From the NCBI GenBank assembly GCA_958295935.1, contig OY282385.1:2645545-2709544 (forward strand): a stretch of 64,000 nucleotides of DNA, read 5' to 3'. Positions 6,721 to 15,893 of the stretch are shown piece by piece; positions within the stretch are counted from its first letter, which is position 1, and every line of letters begins with the position of its first letter. Below the pieces are notes generated by a model. That model saw only the letters and a program-made list of their open reading frames with translations. It did no database searches and had not been told where the DNA came from. This stretch comes from an uncultured Dehalococcoidia bacterium. GTDB taxonomy: Bacteria; Chloroflexota; Dehalococcoidia; Lucifugimonadales; Lucifugimonadaceae. Made by a program: the position numbers and the translations under genes.

Positions 6721-8180
6721 CGTGATTCTTGCTCTTTCTCGAGTTGAGCACGGGCGGCGGGTCTGCCCCTGATCCCGCCGGACAGTGCGGATCGGCCCGC
6801 GTCCCACAGGAAGCTGGCGTCGCTGGGCTTCGGCAGCCAGACCGCTGGCAAACCCGTTCGAGTCGTTTTGTGGAAAACTATGGAGAGGAACAAACATCCG
6901 CACGTCATGCCGATGGTCATGCCCCATGCTGCGGCCTCGGCGCCAAGTGTGGGGTAGAGGATGAGCAGAGCGCTGAGATTGGCGCACAGTCCGAGTAAGA
7001 CCGCCCATGAGCAGATATGCGGGCGGTTGGATCCCTTGAAGTGTGTCATGAAGATTCCCGAGGCGGCGTATGCGAGTATCCCCGGCGCGATAATCCACAA
7101 AAGCGGGACCGCGGGCAGGAAGGCTTCCGAGAGTAGTATGCGCACCAGGGGCGCACTGAGCGCGAGCAGTATGAGCATGGGAATCGCGGTGCCTACGCAG
7201 ACCAGTCGCAGGGAGAGAGCGACTATCTCGACGCGCTCGGCGCCTGCGACACGGGGGAACAGCGCGTTGCCCACGGCGTTGGAGATGAGCATGAACCCAA
7301 GCATGAGGGCGCTGGCTGCTGCGAAGAGGCCAATTTCGCCCTGGCTGGCGATCAATCCAAGTATGACGACTCCGAAGTGAGGTTCGAGGGCGTTTCCGAG
7401 CCTCGCGGCATGGTATTTCAATCCGTAAGTGAGAACGCGGCTGATGTTCGAGCGTTCCGGGATTTCGAGGGCCAGTGCGTAATGGCGCCGCAGGTACAGC
7501 AGGGCGGCGGCTATCATGACGCCGTGGCCTGCGGCAAAGGCGATGATGGCGCCGTCGACCCCAAGGCCCAGGCTCCGGACGAGGACCAGGAGCATGAGCA
7601 CGTTGGCCGCGACGCGGAGCATTGAAAAGACGGCCAATCGCCTGAAGCGGCGGAGCGCGACGAGTTGGTGGTCGAGAACGATGGAGACGGCGGTGAGCGG
7701 GACGAGCGCAAGCGACAGCAGGAAGGTGTTGGTCTCGGCCTTTTGAAAGAAGTCGAGGCCGCTGTATATCAGCGGGACGGCGAGCGCGGCGGCCATCCCT
7801 CCGCCGGCAAAGCAAATAATCAGGGCTGAGGAGACGCCTTGCGAGACGCTCATCTTCCGCGCGGCGACGAAGTACTGAGCGCCCTGTTGTGCGCCGGGGG
7901 TGAGGAGCAGACCAAGCAAAGTCCCGAACGCGATGCAGAGGGCGTATGCGCCCCTTCCTTCGGGAAGCAGCATGTAGGCGAGCAGCGCCTGTATCAGCAA
8001 GGTCAGCCCGGCCATGCCGGCCAAGGTGGCAAACATTACGGACACGTCCTGCCCGCCGGTTGCGGCCGGGACTTCCAGCGCGTTTGTCGTTGCCGGCTTG
8101 GATTGGGGCATGACGCGGATTGGTGAACCGGAGATTGGACTTCGAGGCGCGCGGCGCTTGCCAATGGGTTCAGAGTTCAT
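6717..8180 (-). CDS. Wzx-type polysaccharide flippase (MATE/MOP superfamily)
   Basis: The 487-residue protein has about 12-14 hydrophobic segments after a 45-residue hydrophilic N terminus. It shows features of O-antigen/teichuronic-acid exporters, such as LPEGRGAYALC and GAQQGAQYFVAAR in the first third and repeated small-residue helices throughout. Such proteins move undecaprenyl-linked oligosaccharides across the cytoplasmic membrane. It overlaps the GT2 gene upstream (ATGA at 8177-8180) and the GT4 gene downstream, so the three are translated as a unit. A second, unrelated-looking flippase lies at 21848-23197, which suggests two glycan pathways or a merged locus. Confidence 0.85.
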   Translation of the reverse strand: MNSEPIGKRRAPRSPISGSPIRVMPQSKPATTNALEVPAATGGQDVSVMFATLAGMAGLTLLIQALLAYMLLPEGRGAYALCIAFGTLLGLLLTPGAQQGAQYFVAARKMSVSQGVSSALIICFAGGGMAAALAVPLIYSGLDFFQKAETNTFLLSLALVPLTAVSIVLDHQLVALRRFRRLAVFSMLRVAANVLMLLVLVRSLGLGVDGAIIAFAAGHGVMIAAALLYLRRHYALALEIPERSNISRVLTYGLKYHAARLGNALEPHFGVVILGLIASQGEIGLFAAASALMLGFMLISNAVGNALFPRVAGAERVEIVALSLRLVCVGTAIPMLILLALSAPLVRILLSEAFLPAVPLLWIIAPGILAYAASGIFMTHFKGSNRPHICSWAVLLGLCANLSALLILYPTLGAEAAAWGMTIGMTCGCLFLSIVFHKTTRTGLPAVWLPKPSDASFLWDAGRSALSGGIRGRPAARAQLEKEQESR

Positions 8181-9238
8181 TTATTTCTTTTTAAGGATGT
8201 CCTTAATTTCAAGAATGCCCTGAATATGGGGGGAGGGGGCGGAATGAAGAAGCCTATGCCCCAGCTCAGGTGCATGGTCGCCAGCACCAAGGGAAGGAGG
8301 GCGGCGGCTGGGTCTCGTCGGCGAAAGCCGACGACCGCGGCCCCTGCGGCGAGGGTCAGCACGTAGGCAAGCAGGAGCGCGGCCAAGGGCCAGGGGAATC
8401 CGATCAGTGCGAGCGCCGCGCCGGCCGCGAGGCCCAGCAGCAACCCGGGAGCGGCAAGTTGGCGAGGACGAACGGAGCCCGGATGCTTGATGACAACCGC
8501 GGATTTCCCTCGACCGTAGTTGAAATACTGCCGGGCCAGCGTCCAGAACGTGTTGCGCGGCCGGTAATTCACGACCAGTTCGGGATCGAACCATACGATC
8601 TTCCCGCGCTTGCGCAACCGGTAGTTGAACTCATAGTCCTCGTTGGAGGCGAGGTTGGCATATCCTCCGCCCATCTCTTCGAGGGTCTCACGGGAGAACA
8701 CGCCGAGGTAGGCGGTTTCGGAGGCTTCCTCCTTCCCGCCGAGTCGATGGCGAGCGTCTCCTGCTCCCAGCGGGGTGGTCATGGCGATGGCTACGGTTCG
8801 TTCGAAGGGGGTTGCGCCCACGGCTAGTTGCCGGCCACCGACGTTTGCCGCGCCTGTTCGCTCCAGGGTTTCCATGGCTCGGCTCAGGTAACCAGGCGGG
8901 AGGGTGGTATGTGCGTCGCATCGCGCCATGAAATCTCCGGTGGCGGCGCGAAACGCTGCGTTGGCTCCGGGCACGAGGGATTTTTCGGGATTGGGAATCA
9001 ACTTCACCGACGGGTGAGACCGGCGGACAAGTTCGGCCATGGCCGTGGTTTCGGAGCCGTCGGCGATGATGACCTCTATTGGCCCCTGATAGTCCTGAGC
9101 GAATATCGAATCGAGGGTGGGAATTATGGTCGCTTCGGCATTGCGCGCCGGAATTATTACCGATATGCGCGGGGTGTGATCACGTAATAACCTTCGGGCT
9201 TCGAGGTTTACTGATCTTTTATGTTCATGATGCCGCAT
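8177..9238 (-). CDS. GT2-family glycosyltransferase with C-terminal membrane segments
   Basis: The GT-A domain is clear: ISVIIPARNAEATI near residue 25, IEVIIADGS, then ARCDAH, which supplies the metal-binding acidic motif, and NEDYEFNYRLRKRG later on. Residues 255-340 form two to three membrane helices, followed by GIGFFIPPPPP and a basic tail, so it is membrane anchored. It probably elongates a lipid-linked glycan in the cytoplasm. It starts four bases after the Gfo/Idh/MocA stop and ends overlapping the flippase start. A close paralogue with the same layout lies at 14898-15893, on the other side of the ubiquitin-like operon. Confidence 0.85.
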   Translation of the reverse strand: MRHHEHKRSVNLEARRLLRDHTPRISVIIPARNAEATIIPTLDSIFAQDYQGPIEVIIADGSETTAMAELVRRSHPSVKLIPNPEKSLVPGANAAFRAATGDFMARCDAHTTLPPGYLSRAMETLERTGAANVGGRQLAVGATPFERTVAIAMTTPLGAGDARHRLGGKEEASETAYLGVFSRETLEEMGGGYANLASNEDYEFNYRLRKRGKIVWFDPELVVNYRPRNTFWTLARQYFNYGRGKSAVVIKHPGSVRPRQLAAPGLLLGLAAGAALALIGFPWPLAALLLAYVLTLAAGAAVVGFRRRDPAAALLPLVLATMHLSWGIGFFIPPPPPIFRAFLKLRTSLKRNK

Positions 9239-10845: not shown

Positions 10846-11097
10846 CTATAGCAGGTTCTTGTACCAGCCGGGGCTGATCATGGCCATAATGCCCAGGGCC
10901 GATATGATTATGGTTGCGGCTACTCCTGTAGTGGCGGCTCTTTTCCACTGACGTGAGACGATAAATGCCAACCCGGATGCGGCCACGCCACCTATGATTA
11001 CCCACTGTAGAGACCCGCTCGCGGCTATCAAAATCACCCAAGCCAACACTCTGGCCACGTATTTGTAGATATCCTGCACGGAAGTTCTCGTGTTCAT
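10846..11097 (-). CDS. Small two- or three-helix membrane protein, unrecognised
   Basis: The product of about 83 residues has hydrophobic stretches LAWVILIAASG, WVIIGGVAASGLAFIV and a C-terminal VAATIIISALGIMAMI, with basic residues between. ATG 11097 is preferred because an AAGGAAGG sequence lies nine bases upstream; an ATG at 11106 is too close to that site. The general layout recalls VirB2/TrbC-type pilins or small inner-membrane proteins, but I do not recognise a family. It lies just downstream of the ubiquitin-like operon on the same strand with a gap of about 200 bases, so a link to that operon is possible but not shown. Confidence 0.5.
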   Translation of the reverse strand: MNTRTSVQDIYKYVARVLAWVILIAASGSLQWVIIGGVAASGLAFIVSRQWKRAATTGVAATIIISALGIMAMISPGWYKNLL

Positions 11098-11305
11098 TAG
11101 ATTCATCCTTCCTTCACACACAACACTTTCGGTTGTTCGTTTCCTATCACTATGCTTGGGGCTACTGCTTTCGCCGTGCCTGATTTTCACCCATGGCCTT
11201 CAACCATTGTGAACCCGTCGGTTGTGGTTGGTCACCACCTCAGCCCATCTCGACATCCTCCGCATCGTGCAAATCGCCGATGAACTGGTGCTGACATCTC
11301 AGACT

Positions 11306-12265
11306 TCAACTTCTGATCCGGTCCAACCACGCAGCTGCCGCCTGAGTTCGGTCGTCGATCCAACGTAAGACGCGAGTCTTAGTGCCCGGTGAATTAGCGA
11401 ATTGCCGCAGTCGTTCGGCTTGTTCGTGGCGTTTGGTGAGGTCGATGCGATTATCACCTGCGCCTTCGGCGACTTCAACGGGACAGTGCGGTCTTGTGGT
11501 GTGGTCGAGATGTTCTAGACAATGGGTACTCAGTGAGTAACGAAGCGGGCCGGGGTCACCCAGTCCCGCAGGCGCCACGCTGAAGCTAACGTACTGAGCA
11601 AGCAGGCTGGCGGCCACGTTTATTGAGAGCGCAGCCACGTTCTGACTGGGTAGCTCATCGGAGCGACCAGCACCCGCGATATATTCAGGGTCGTCCAAGA
11701 GGCCCTGGCGGTCGGGGACGACTTGGCTGAGCTCGAGTTGTCGGGTGCAACTCATGCACGGTTGTCCTGGTCTGATGACGTGGGAGCGCCAAGTGGCATT
11801 ACGCATTTCTCCGTCGCCAAAGATGTCGATACTAATGCCACCGTCAATGACCGGGATGAGATCCGAGTAGGCTAGGGCATTGAGGACGGCTCGAGGCCAA
11901 GGGCGATCAACACAGGAGAAGATGAGGTCATGGTCAAGGGCGAGTTTCAATCCTGCGGGCTCGCAGATAGATAAGTCAGAGACCTCAATCCCGTAACTTG
12001 TGGCGGTTGCTGCTCCCGTTCCTTCCCTCTGGGCGACATGAACCTTGGGCCGCCTCAACCACACATCGCGAGGCTTCGCACCGATGAGTCTGTCCAAATT
12101 GTGCGCTTGAACGACATCGAAGTCCATCACGGTTATGTGGCAGAGTCCCGATGCGGCTAGGCGGACTAGGACATCAAGTCCTACACTTCCGGCACCTACA
12201 ACGAGGATTCGGCGGCGAACGAGGTCGGCTTGGCGCCGCTCACCCCAAGAATTTATAGTGCGCAA
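11306..12265 (-). CDS. ThiF/E1-like adenylating enzyme of a ubiquitin-like conjugation operon
   Basis: The 319-residue protein is an E1/ThiF-fold enzyme that should adenylate the C terminus of a ubiquitin-like protein. The nucleotide-binding loop is GAGSVG at 24-29, followed by the acidic strand end MDFDVV, the conserved NLDR, and the second acidic strand IFSCVDRPW. A PCMSC pair near 170 may bind zinc or supply the reactive cysteine. The last 60 residues form an extra helical tail. It is the last gene of a four-gene minus-strand operon and starts 15 bases after the JAB stop. In known systems the E1 passes the activated Ubl to an E2-like partner, which is also encoded here. Confidence 0.85.
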   Translation of the reverse strand: MRTINSWGERRQADLVRRRILVVGAGSVGLDVLVRLAASGLCHITVMDFDVVQAHNLDRLIGAKPRDVWLRRPKVHVAQREGTGAATATSYGIEVSDLSICEPAGLKLALDHDLIFSCVDRPWPRAVLNALAYSDLIPVIDGGISIDIFGDGEMRNATWRSHVIRPGQPCMSCTRQLELSQVVPDRQGLLDDPEYIAGAGRSDELPSQNVAALSINVAASLLAQYVSFSVAPAGLGDPGPLRYSLSTHCLEHLDHTTRPHCPVEVAEGAGDNRIDLTKRHEQAERLRQFANSPGTKTRVLRWIDDRTQAAAAWLDRIRS

Positions 12266-12280
12266 CTGCCTTTCGGTTGG

Positions 12281-12814
12281 TTACGGTGGAGAGCAGAGAG
12301 TGTCGTTCCAAGATACGGCGAGCCTGTCTCCGATGACGCGAACGTTGTTGGAGTGGCTGCAATCAACCTGCTTCCCGGTCCCGATGTCCCAATGACGCGC
12401 CGACCAAGTGTTGTTGCCGGTGGCGAGAGTCATTCCAACTAGAGGCAGCCCGGTGACCTCACGTATGAGGTTGGCATAACTGGATTCGGTGTCGCGGTCT
12501 GGTCCGCTCATGGACTGCCAGTTGCTGGATTCGGGATGGCTGTGGAGTAGTACCAAGCCGTAGCCATCGCTTTGGGCAATTTCAGCAGCCCTCAGGACAT
12601 ACTCGGAGGTGACAGTCACATTTCCATGGACATGTCGGTCTCCAGGTTCGGGCGGTATTACCTCGGCGATTAGGGCACTGACCCGGTTCATGCCAGTTGA
12701 GCGGCGGTAGGTAGCTAGGCAGAGGTCTTCCTGACCATCGGCCCTGACCAACTGGCTCAAGAGCACCTCCTCGGTCGTGGCGGTCATGGCAACTGAGGTG
12801 GTCCAGCGGGTCAT
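12281..12814 (-). CDS. JAB/JAMM-family metallopeptidase (deubiquitinase-like)
   Basis: The 177-residue protein carries a JAMM zinc motif: H91-S-H93 in LLHSHP, with a serine and aspartate at about 103 and 106 (SGPD). The spacing from the second histidine to the serine is nine residues instead of the textbook seven. In prokaryotic ubiquitin-like operons such proteins process the Ubl precursor or remove it from targets. It overlaps the E2-like gene as ATGA and ends 15 bases before the E1. No signal peptide or membrane segment is seen, so it acts in the cytoplasm. Confidence 0.82.
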   Translation of the reverse strand: MTRWTTSVAMTATTEEVLLSQLVRADGQEDLCLATYRRSTGMNRVSALIAEVIPPEPGDRHVHGNVTVTSEYVLRAAEIAQSDGYGLVLLHSHPESSNWQSMSGPDRDTESSYANLIREVTGLPLVGMTLATGNNTWSARHWDIGTGKQVDCSHSNNVRVIGDRLAVSWNDTLCSPP

Positions 12815-13158
12815 GTGATTGCCTCACTAAGAACAGCACGAATGTGGCTAGACCAACAGATTCGGGGTGGGGTGTCACCCCACCCCTCGATCTGGCGGCT
12901 GTGCATGAGCCAGCCCGATTTCGGCGATGCTTGGCTGTTGGTTCTGTAGAAACCAATCCCGGCGGGGAAGTGGACCCAATGCGGAGGCACCTGAGGCCAT
13001 GAGGCGAGTTCGTCAGTGCCGACGCCTGTTTCAACTGCGATTCCTGCATATGCACCGTCGATGGGCGTGATTCGGTAGACGACGAGCCCGGCCTCAACCA
13101 TGGGATTGAAGCCGAGTTGCGTTATGTCGTCGATGAACCTCAGGACGCCGGGGGGCAT
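12811..13158 (-). CDS. Prokaryotic E2 family E-like protein
   Basis: The 115-residue protein shows the pattern I associate with the Prok-E2_E family: a start like FIDDITQLGF, then PPHWVHFP at about 58-65, GWLMHSRQIEGW, and SSHIRAVL near the end. It is expected to accept the activated ubiquitin-like protein from the E1 and transfer it to a target. The only cysteine is C101, in PRICWSS close to the C terminus, not in an evident classical E2 active-site position. The start codon shares one base with the Ubl stop and the stop overlaps the JAB start, so expression is coupled. Confidence 0.75.
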   Translation of the reverse strand: MPPGVLRFIDDITQLGFNPMVEAGLVVYRITPIDGAYAGIAVETGVGTDELASWPQVPPHWVHFPAGIGFYRTNSQASPKSGWLMHSRQIEGWGDTPPRICWSSHIRAVLSEAIT

Positions 13159-13418
13159 TAGGCTACATCCGCCTTCTCGCGGATCGAAACGAACCGTGCG
13201 TCTTTTTCTATCTCGACGGGGTCGTCGTCAGCGAAGCGTTTCGTCTGGGGACGCTCCTTGCCTTGGAGTTCGCCCAAGTCGTAGATGTTGGGCTCCAGTC
13301 CAGCTAAGCGCAAAAGCTCGGAGGCCTTTTGCACGATGTCGCTCGTGGTGAAAGGTTGCCCGTCGATGGTGAACGGAATGGAACGTCCGAACGGCTTTAT
13401 GGTGACTGATTGGGTCAT
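13158..13418 (-). CDS. Ubiquitin-like modifier protein
   Basis: The 86-residue product begins SVTIKPFGRSIPFTIDGQPF and continues with a helix-like SDIVQKASELLRLAG, then YDLGELQG and a final strand. This order (two strands, helix, two strands) and its place as first gene of an E2/JAB/E1 operon mark it as a single-domain ubiquitin-like protein, related to the multiubiquitin/E2_E-associated type. It ends EKADVA, not Gly-Gly, so it may be conjugated through another residue or need trimming. ATG 13418 is chosen because a strong GGAGGAGG lies eight bases upstream; a longer open frame to 13607 has no support and would overlap the divergent regulator. Confidence 0.78.
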   Translation of the reverse strand: MTQSVTIKPFGRSIPFTIDGQPFTTSDIVQKASELLRLAGLEPNIYDLGELQGKERPQTKRFADDDPVEIEKDARFVSIREKADVA

Positions 13419-13530
13419 TGACCTATCCTCCTCCCCTTGGATCAGGGGCTTGTCTTCACGTCGCAGCACTTGCGCTCCGCCACGCAAAGGTGTAGATTGT
13501 TGCCGAAGCGATGTACGATTCGACAAGAGC

Positions 13531-13569
13531 ATTATTGCACAGGTGATATATGATTGCAAGAAAGCAATC
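13531..13569 (-). promoter_or_regulatory. Candidate promoter and operator of the ubiquitin-like operon
   Basis: On the minus strand TTGCAA (13554-13559) and AATAAT (13531-13536) are 17 bases apart and point toward the Ubl gene. The -35 lies inside the inverted repeat GATTGC-N6-GCAATC (13552-13569), which also covers the start codon of the divergent XRE gene. Binding of the XRE protein here could silence both sides. The -10 is a weak match, so this is a candidate. Confidence 0.35.
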
Positions 13570-13957
13570 AGACGAGAGCGAGCTAGGCCAGAAGAGTAGT
13601 GGGCCAAGGAGGGGGAGTTTCGACGCGGAGGCCTTCTACTCCGCTCTAGATGCAGAGCGCCGGAGCCGACAACAGACCTGGAAGCGGGTCGCTGAAGAAG
13701 CGCAGGTAAGTGCCTCCACTCTCACTCGTATGGCCCAAGGGAGGCGTCCAGACGTAGACAGTCTGGCAGCACTGGTCACATGGTCCGGGTTGAGTGCCGA
13801 CACCTTCGTCCGGGACGACCAAGGAAAGCCCGAGCCCGGTGGTTTAGCCATGATCTCGACCTACTTGAAGAGTGACCCTCACCTGACACCTGAAGCAGCG
13901 GACGCCCTTGATGAGTTAGTAAAGGCGACATACGAGCGGATGCGGAAGAAGGACTAG
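13550..13957 (+). CDS. XRE-family DNA-binding regulator
   Basis: The 135-residue protein has a Cro/C1-type helix-turn-helix at about residues 40-85 (WKRVAEEAQVSASTLTRMAQGRRPDVDSL split by the recognition turn), followed by a helical C terminus. It diverges from the ubiquitin-like operon and is six bases upstream of an ImmA/IrrE-type peptidase gene. Known XRE-ImmA pairs work as repressor and repressor-cleaving peptidase that sense DNA damage or phage. Here the pair probably controls the conjugation operon. The start codon lies within the palindrome 13552-13569, suggesting autoregulation. Confidence 0.8.
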   Translation: MIARKQSDESELGQKSSGPRRGSFDAEAFYSALDAERRSRQQTWKRVAEEAQVSASTLTRMAQGRRPDVDSLAALVTWSGLSADTFVRDDQGKPEPGGLAMISTYLKSDPHLTPEAADALDELVKATYERMRKKD

Positions 13958-13963
13958 CGTATC

Positions 13964-14518
13964 GTGCGGAGAGGGTTTAAGACGGAAGCTAACGCTATTG
14001 CACGCGAGGTGAGGGGAGAATTATCCCTATCTCGCGCCGCGCCTCTCGACGTGTGGCGACTAGCCAACCATCTAGATATACAGGTGGTCCCGCTGTCCAG
14101 CCTCCATGCGGAGGCTCCTCGCGCTGTGCAATTATTCATGAATGGAGGCGAGGGGATATTTTCTGGAGTTACAGTATTCTGGGGCCATCAGCGAACCATC
14201 GTTTTTAATGATGCGCACGCCCCGGGACGTCAAGCCAGCGACATCGGGCATGAGCTATCACATGGACTCCTGCTTCACACTCCTACAATGGCGGCAGATG
14301 AGCTAGGGTGTCGTCTGTGGAAGCGTGATGTTGAAGATGAGGCAGCTTGGCTGAGTGGCTCGTTACTGGTACCAGAAGAGGTCGCACTCCTGATCGTTCG
14401 ACGTGGATGGTCGCTATCTGAGGCGGCAGCTAGTTATGGCGTTACCGAGAGTATGATCCGGTTCCGTATAAACGTGACGGGTGCACGGAATCGGGTACAA
14501 CGGATGCGGGTAAAGTAG
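13964..14518 (+). CDS. ImmA/IrrE-family metallopeptidase
   Basis: The 184-residue product starts at GTG 13964. The zinc site HELSH is at residues 96-100, and the third ligand region EDEAAWLSGSLLVP follows 28 residues later, as in ImmA/IrrE peptidases. The C-terminal AAASYGVTESMIRFRINV matches the usual family tail. The expected substrate is the XRE protein encoded just before it. Base composition is a little lower in GC than in the glycan genes, which fits acquisition with the defence module. Confidence 0.88.
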   Translation: MRRGFKTEANAIAREVRGELSLSRAAPLDVWRLANHLDIQVVPLSSLHAEAPRAVQLFMNGGEGIFSGVTVFWGHQRTIVFNDAHAPGRQASDIGHELSHGLLLHTPTMAADELGCRLWKRDVEDEAAWLSGSLLVPEEVALLIVRRGWSLSEAAASYGVTESMIRFRINVTGARNRVQRMRVK

Positions 14519-14897: not shown

Positions 14898-15893
14898 TCA
14901 GACGCGCGGCGGATTTTTGCGAAGGCGTCCTCTAGGCGGAAGAAAGAAGCCGATTCCCCAACTGAGATGTATTGTCGCCAAGACCAGTGGGATCAGGATG
15001 GCGGCCGGGTCTCGGCGGCGAATGCCGATCACCGCTGCCCCGAGGGTTATGGTCAAGAGGTAGACGAGCGGGATGGCTAGCGCCGCCCATATCATTCCGG
15101 CCAAGCCCAATGCGATGGAGGCGGCCAGGCCGAGCACCAGCAGGGGAGCGGCGAGTTGTCTGGCCCGGAGGGAGGCGGGGTAGGTCATTAGCACCACCGA
15201 TTTCCATCGGCCGTAGTCGAAGTACTGGCGCACCAGTGCGCGCAGATTGTCGCGCGGCCGGTAGACAGCCTCAAGTTGGGGATCGAACCACACTGTTTCG
15301 CCTCTGCGGCGCAGCCGCCAGTTGAGTTCGAAGTCCTCATTTCTGATCAAAGCGGAATCGAATCCTCCCGCGGCTTCGAGCGTCTTTCGATACCAAGCGC
15401 CTAGGTAGACGGTGTCGATGGGACCCTCGGGCCCACCGAGGCGATGGCGTGCATCGCCCACGCCGAGGAACGTAGTGGTCGCCATTGCGACCGCCCGCTC
15501 GAATACCGTGGACCCGGCGGCTTTTTGTCGGCCCCCGACGTTGGCCGCGCCGGTTCTTGCCAGGGTGGCGACGGCCCGCTTCACATAGTCCGGCGGTAGC
15601 ACTGCACGGGTGTCGCATCGTACGATGACATCCCCTGCGGCCTCTTGCAGCGCGAGGTTGAGGCCGGCTGAGATGGACTGCTCGCGGTTGGGCACCACCC
15701 GCACCGCGGGGTAACGCTTCTGGAGCATCTCCTCCGTGGCCGGTGTGTCCGAGCCGTCGGCTATGATCACCTCGATGGGGCCGGAGTATTTTTGGGCCAG
15801 CACCGAATCGAGGGCGGTGGAGAGGGCTTCTTCGTCGTTGCGCGTCGGTATGATTACTGACACATGGCTCATGGTCGGGGCGGCAGAGAGCAA
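14898..15893 (-). CDS. GT2-family glycosyltransferase, paralogue of the 8.2-9.2 kb gene
   Basis: The protein begins VSVIIPTRNDEEAL and continues IEVIIADGS, VRCDTRAVLPPDY, GAANVGGRQ and NEDFELNWRLRRRG. This is the same order and much of the same wording as the GT2 at 8177-9238. Two to three C-terminal membrane helices and GIGFFLPP are also shared. It should transfer a nucleotide-activated sugar to a lipid-linked acceptor. Either TTG 15893, immediately after the upstream stop, or ATG 15872, directly before the conserved core, could be the start; ATG 15872 gives the more typical N terminus. The pair suggests an old duplication now split by the ubiquitin-like insert. Confidence 0.85.
   Translation of the reverse strand: MLSAAPTMSHVSVIIPTRNDEEALSTALDSVLAQKYSGPIEVIIADGSDTPATEEMLQKRYPAVRVVPNREQSISAGLNLALQEAAGDVIVRCDTRAVLPPDYVKRAVATLARTGAANVGGRQKAAGSTVFERAVAMATTTFLGVGDARHRLGGPEGPIDTVYLGAWYRKTLEAAGGFDSALIRNEDFELNWRLRRRGETVWFDPQLEAVYRPRDNLRALVRQYFDYGRWKSVVLMTYPASLRARQLAAPLLVLGLAASIALGLAGMIWAALAIPLVYLLTITLGAAVIGIRRRDPAAILIPLVLATIHLSWGIGFFLPPRGRLRKNPPRV

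Follow-up and report, generated by a model that had tools for sequence, protein, structure and literature searches.

A Bub-related operon encoding an alanine-ended ubiquitin-like protein and a serine-arginine E2-like protein in a Dehalococcoidia genome

Introduction

A C-terminal glycine is regarded as a hallmark of ubiquitin-fold modifiers that can be conjugated. Among bacterial operons that encode ubiquitin-like (Ubl) proteins, type 6e was reported in 2006 to carry E2s without a cysteine, and these were called inactive (PMC1779556). Of 544 operons of the related Bub type, 219 have CapW or CapH+CapP beside them (PMC13373217), and cleavage activated by single-stranded DNA (ssDNA) has been established for CapP and for PprI (PMC10904395). 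Here we describe a Ubl operon (11306 to 13418, minus strand) and the divergent XRE-ImmA regulator pair next to it (13550 to 14518, plus strand). Both lie in the window, a 64,000-nucleotide (nt) stretch of contig OY282385.1 from the 2.75 Mb single-contig genome of an uncultured Dehalococcoidia bacterium. On sequence evidence, the operon is a divergent relative of Bub and type 6e, the operons that combine a polyUbl, a Cys-less E2 and a JAB-E1. With a probability of roughly 0.6, we favor the reading that it encodes a Ubl conjugation cascade of this type that would be induced by damage, work through ester intermediates and probably serve in defense.

Results

The original prediction described Ubl, E2-like, JAMM and E1 genes in one overlapping operon that diverges from an XRE-ImmA pair. 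All of these genes were confirmed, with the operon running in that order on the minus strand and the regulators on the plus strand, and the proposed kinship of this Ubl conjugation operon to Bub was supported by profile matches to the canonical Bub Ubl, E2 and BubCD. The predicted overlap between genes holds for Ubl and E2 (1 nt) and for E2 and JAMM (4 nt); JAMM and E1 do not overlap and instead share one frame, with a TAA between them. We compared about 20 relatives from Chloroflexota and actinobacterial plasmids, including 19 E2s and 17 JAMM-E1s. The four-gene order recurs in independent genomes and plasmids, indicating that the arrangement is not due to chance.

We began with the modifier. 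The Ubl gene (13158..13418, minus strand) is an open reading frame (ORF) with a strong Shine-Dalgarno sequence, GGAGGAGG, and encodes an 86-amino-acid (aa) Multi_ubiq-type protein that ends in ADVA, with no residues beyond the final Ala. The window Ubl alone matched Multi_ubiq with an E value of 0.068, and 8 of the 10 aligned Ubl members matched this profile, which is characteristic of Bub and type 6e, with a best value of 3.9e-12. HHalign comparison of the branch Ubls with canonical Bub Ubls gave a score of 37.7, while the maximum among 200 shuffles was 19.8. The order of strands and helices is compatible with a beta-grasp, and the ubiquitin fold is backed by the family profiles. An AlphaFold model built from a two-sequence alignment had a predicted local distance difference test score (pLDDT) of 62, yielded no useful Foldseek match and was too poor for use.

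The ADVA end had been singled out as unusual. It is indeed present, but it is not peculiar to this Ubl. Across the branch, the tail is Val-Ala or Val-Ser except in two members, and the final residue is Ala or Ser, in one case Val, and never Gly. The termini read ADVA in the window and L007, APVA in L002, L008, L009 and L012, AQVA in L011, GGVA in L006, L013 and L014, GPVA in L010, and TPVA in L031, L032 and L066. Out-of-sample Ubls end in PVS (L071), TVS (L072), PAS (L070) and PAV (L069). Two further Ubls carry extensions: in L068 (5422-5790), PVA is followed by the six-residue tail HSDERS and in L067 (5462-5698), RVS is followed by the five-residue tail WRENV. Both would need trimming, probably by JAMM, to expose the Ala or Ser end. 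Judged by these aligned termini, an Ala/Ser tail is a trait of the whole branch and not an oddity of the window protein. Among canonical Bub Ubls, the PDB construct of Citrobacter BubA ends in NNG, BubB starts with the residue that follows, and the Ubls of L024 and L028 end in TEG. Ends that are not of the Gly type are also found in some canonical Bub Ubls (L023, L030). In canonical Bub loci L019-L022 and L029, the Ubl is fused to the E2.

The E2-like protein (12811..13158, minus strand, 115 aa) had been labeled E2_E-like. Neither this protein nor its nine aligned relatives matched Pfam Prok-E2_E (PF14462), and establishing the kinship therefore required profile-profile comparison. HHalign against the canonical Bub E2 (PF14462) gave a score of 32.4, compared to 20.0 or less for 200 column-shuffled controls. 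Residues G35, G45, P55, P59, S87, R88 and W102 are invariant in all 19 E2s, and the Ser87-Arg88 pair is the likely active site. The E2s of L071 and L072 have the sequence YWSRP, which lies between the canonical WSRH and the HSR or MSR of the branch, and they scored about equally on both E2 profiles. The original prediction also drew attention to a single cysteine near the C terminus. This residue, C101, exists but appears to be incidental: the aligned residue is Ala, Val, Ser or another in relatives, and 5 of the 19 E2s are free of cysteine. We rejected C101 as the catalytic Cys because the position is not conserved across the 19 E2s.

The JAMM/JAB metallopeptidase domain (12281..12814, minus strand; E29, H91, H93, S103 and D106) aligns with the N-terminal half of Citrobacter BubCD. 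The E1-like ThiF adenylyltransferase (11306..12265, minus strand) has a TTG start, lies in the JAMM frame, and matches both ThiF (5e-25) and BubCD. A JAMM-E1 profile matched Citrobacter BubCD over nearly its full length (E value 4.4e-26) and the canonical JAB-E1 set at 1.2e-52; the best single PDB match of the E1 is MoeB. The E1 retains GAGSVG at residues 24-29 (GxGSVG), K74 and D120. Its only conserved cysteines are 170, 173 and 261 of the metal site and, in the C-x-D adenylation motif, Cys118, which is replaced by Ala in L007.

JAMM and E1 are fused in 17 of the 17 relatives compared and form a single polypeptide in Bub. In the window, they are separated by the in-frame TAA (12281..12283), which falls in the inter-domain linker; the nearest relative, L002, a metagenome-assembled genome of Caldilineaceae that is ~73% identical, has CAG (Gln) at this position. 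All invariant residues are intact in both halves, and a TTG with an AGG-rich stretch is located 15 nt past the stop. Compared to L002, both halves have a low nonsynonymous (dN) and a high synonymous (dS) divergence, and the window branch is shorter than the L002 branch in a maximum-likelihood tree, arguing against a long decay of JAMM-E1. The TAA reflects either a recent, tolerated split, a restart of E1 at the TTG at 12265, or a base error.

To place the operon among its relatives, we used tblastn with the E2, which identified ten plasmids of Mycobacterium, Mycobacteroides, Rhodococcus, Nocardioides, Clavibacter and Pseudarthrobacter, each encoding a Ubl or double Ubl, an E2 and a JAMM-ThiF protein. 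Profile searches added L031 and L032, and then L066-L072 from Chloroflexota. L003, L004 and L018 were dropped as chance or ordinary MoeB-like matches. In the maximum-likelihood tree of JAMM-E1, the members whose Ubls end in -V[A/S] (11 rows) make up one side of a branch with 100/99 support, beside two haloarchaeal systems. DUF6527, which is present at canonical Bub loci L019-L024, L028 and L030, that is, at most canonical Bub operons in the comparison, is missing from the window operon, is not annotated beside the plasmid members, and had no hidden Markov model match in L066-L072. The 149 genomes nearest to the host contained one other match, a stop-containing fragment that was unrelated on reading, and this near absence suggests that the operon was probably acquired horizontally. 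Scans of viral contigs with E1, JAMM-E1 and E2 yielded no relatives, and the phage collection yielded nothing beyond a weak match to the ThiF domain, in two records of Staphylococcus phages. The host genome has a second, different Ubl locus outside the window (L046, 2106500-2120500), with a Multi_ubiq protein, DUF6527, an E1 whose N terminus carries a different domain instead of JAB, and a separate XRE/ImmA pair.

The divergent regulators support the predicted XRE-ImmA control. The XRE-type regulator (13550..13957, plus strand) is 50-67% identical to XREs beside other Ubl/E1 operons, namely the canonical Bub operons of Oscillatoria (L028) and Rhizobium gallicum (L020) and Chloroflexota loci L047, L054 and L055, which belong to other Ubl operon classes. 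The ImmA/IrrE (M78) metallopeptidase (13964..14518, plus strand; HELSH at residues 96-100) is CapP/PprI-like (PF06114, 1.2e-13; PADLOC capP, 3.1e-5) and 46-57% identical to its kin at three of these five loci. As in CapH+CapP, a helix-turn-helix (HTH) protein and an HExxH M78 peptidase adjoin an immune-type operon, and ImmA regulators adjoin most relatives of the operon. Spanning the XRE start is a predicted operator palindrome (13549..13570), TGATTGCAAGAAAGCAATCA, with arms TGATTGC and GCAATCA around AAGAAA and the core ATTGC-N6-GCAAT at 13553-13568. It occurs once in the window, compared to 0.05 expected. The arms are 7 bases long, and a repeat search requiring 8-base arms missed it. A perfect ATTGC-N6-GCAAT is present within or close to the regulator/Ubl promoter region at 5 of the 6 loci with kindred XREs (it is absent from L054), was found nowhere in 0.44 Mb of other loci, and has only one more occurrence in the host genome. 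The plasmid relatives of the branch mostly have different regulators (HigBA/ImmA, sigma factor), indicating that regulator and effector modules have been exchanged. On Rhodococcus plasmids L008, L009 and L011, a divergent RelE/HigB-type toxin and HigA-type antitoxin replace the XRE-ImmA pair.

As originally described, the operon lies inside a polysaccharide locus. Family 2 glycosyltransferases (8177-9238 and 14898-15893) flank it, and the polysaccharide genes on its two sides include a Gfo/Idh/MocA oxidoreductase and an epimerase. The GC content of the operon (0.55-0.59) is slightly lower than that of these neighbors (0.60-0.64). Downstream of E1 and on the same strand, 10846-11190 (minus) encodes a small protein with hydrophobic stretches that matched no Pfam family and has no counterpart at the other loci compared; it may or may not be part of the operon. 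A large defense island (26916-63988) starts ~12 kb past the regulator genes and includes genes for an HsdM-like protein (271 aa, seemingly truncated), HsdR, a ThsB-like TIR protein, DruE/DruF/DruL-like (Druantia-like) proteins and HmaA/B/C-like proteins. The original prediction missed this island, the TAA that separates JAMM from E1, the lack of DUF6527 and the common operator.

Discussion

In the cascade that we favor, E1 would use ATP to adenylate the C-terminal Ala of the Ubl, which would then be carried on Ser87 of the E2 through an ester, not a thioester, bond before passing to targets. JAMM would strip the Ubl from these targets; we propose a role as deconjugase because the window Ubl needs no trimming. 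A single ancestral JAMM-E1 gene was probably split recently, and E1 is probably translated from a restart at TTG 12265, beyond the TAA. XRE would repress through binding to the palindrome, and damage, probably in the form of ssDNA, would activate ImmA, leading to XRE cleavage and expression of the operon. The most likely role of the operon is in phage defense or a stress response, and we favor defense because of the plasmid carriage and the nearby type I restriction-modification, Druantia-like and Hma genes.

Parts of this proposal have competing accounts. The E2-like protein could be a catalytically dead UBC/RWD-like subunit that binds Ubl, leaving modification to E1 alone or together with JAMM. 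The lack of a conserved Cys is consistent with this idea, and Iyer et al. termed such domains inactive (PMC1779556). However, a mere binding subunit would have no need for an invariant Ser-Arg at the position where canonical Bub E2s have their conserved Ser, and active Bub E2s with ester intermediates were reportedly described in a 2026 paper in Nature Structural & Molecular Biology. We consider a dead E2 unlikely. More improbable still is that the Ubl serves a small-molecule pathway as a carrier, either a ThiS/MoaD-like sulfur carrier or an MccB-like adenylated peptide, and is not a protein tag. As MccB shows, adenylation by this family is not restricted to a C-terminal Gly, and the Ala tail and the similarity of the E1 to MoeB point in the same direction. 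By contrast, no metabolic genes accompany the operon, its E2 and JAMM partners are constant, and the best full-length match is to BubCD.

A different concern is that the window copy is decaying or switched off, with a TAA that either disables the system by mutation or is an artifact of the assembly. The fusion of JAMM and E1 in every relative compared and the absence of the operon from close relatives of the host genome are both in keeping with this, and the truncated hsdM-like ORF nearby hints at further broken genes. Yet the position of the TAA in the linker, the retention of all invariant residues in both domains, the low dN in both halves and the TTG with its AGG-rich stretch make decay a doubtful explanation. 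Several points do weigh against the ester-based, damage-inducible cascade. The TAA could leave E1 poorly expressed. The Ser-Arg pair is aligned in just 7 of 9 canonical E2s, and the E2 fold is putative: the AlphaFold model of the E2-like protein, also from a two-sequence alignment, had a pLDDT of 57 and no useful Foldseek match. Finally, protection against phage by Bub itself has not been demonstrated (PMC13373217).

If the cascade operates as proposed, a branch with Ala or Ser tails that has kept its E1, E2 and deconjugase partners would mean that conjugation requires neither Gly nor Cys. The common XRE and operator link several different classes of Ubl operon through a single switch. Tentatively, and at slightly less than even odds, these observations would extend to thiol-free conjugation via a C-terminal Ala (Ser in sister systems) throughout the Chloroflexota and actinobacterial plasmid members, controlled by a portable XRE-ImmA cassette that responds to damage and uses one operator across Ubl operon classes.

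Among described systems, the four parts of the operon (Ubl, E2, JAB and E1) are those of Bil (BilABCD), but the Bil E2 has a catalytic Cys (CEHH) and its Ubl a C-terminal Gly (PMC11354881), and the window system has neither. Type 6e (PMC1779556) is closer, with a polyUbl or solo Ubl, a Cys-less E2/RWD-like domain and a JAB fused to E1; the window operon differs in the absence of the metal-binding protein Y (DUF6527) and in the Ala/Ser tail of the branch. With Bub (Citrobacter BubA/BubB/BubCD; PDB 9d59, 9eae and 9ea4), it shares a Multi_ubiq-type Ubl, a Cys-less E2, a JAB-E1, ImmA/XRE-type regulators and mobile carriage. It differs from Bub in a Ubl tail of -VA instead of Gly, an E2 that falls below Pfam detection and has HSR where Bub has WSRH, the lack of DUF6527, and the JAMM/E1 split in the window genome. 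Like CapH+CapP and PprI-DdrO, the regulator pair combines an HTH repressor with an HExxH M78 peptidase adjoining an immune operon, and by analogy with those systems, activation by ssDNA and cleavage of the repressor are putative features of the window pair.

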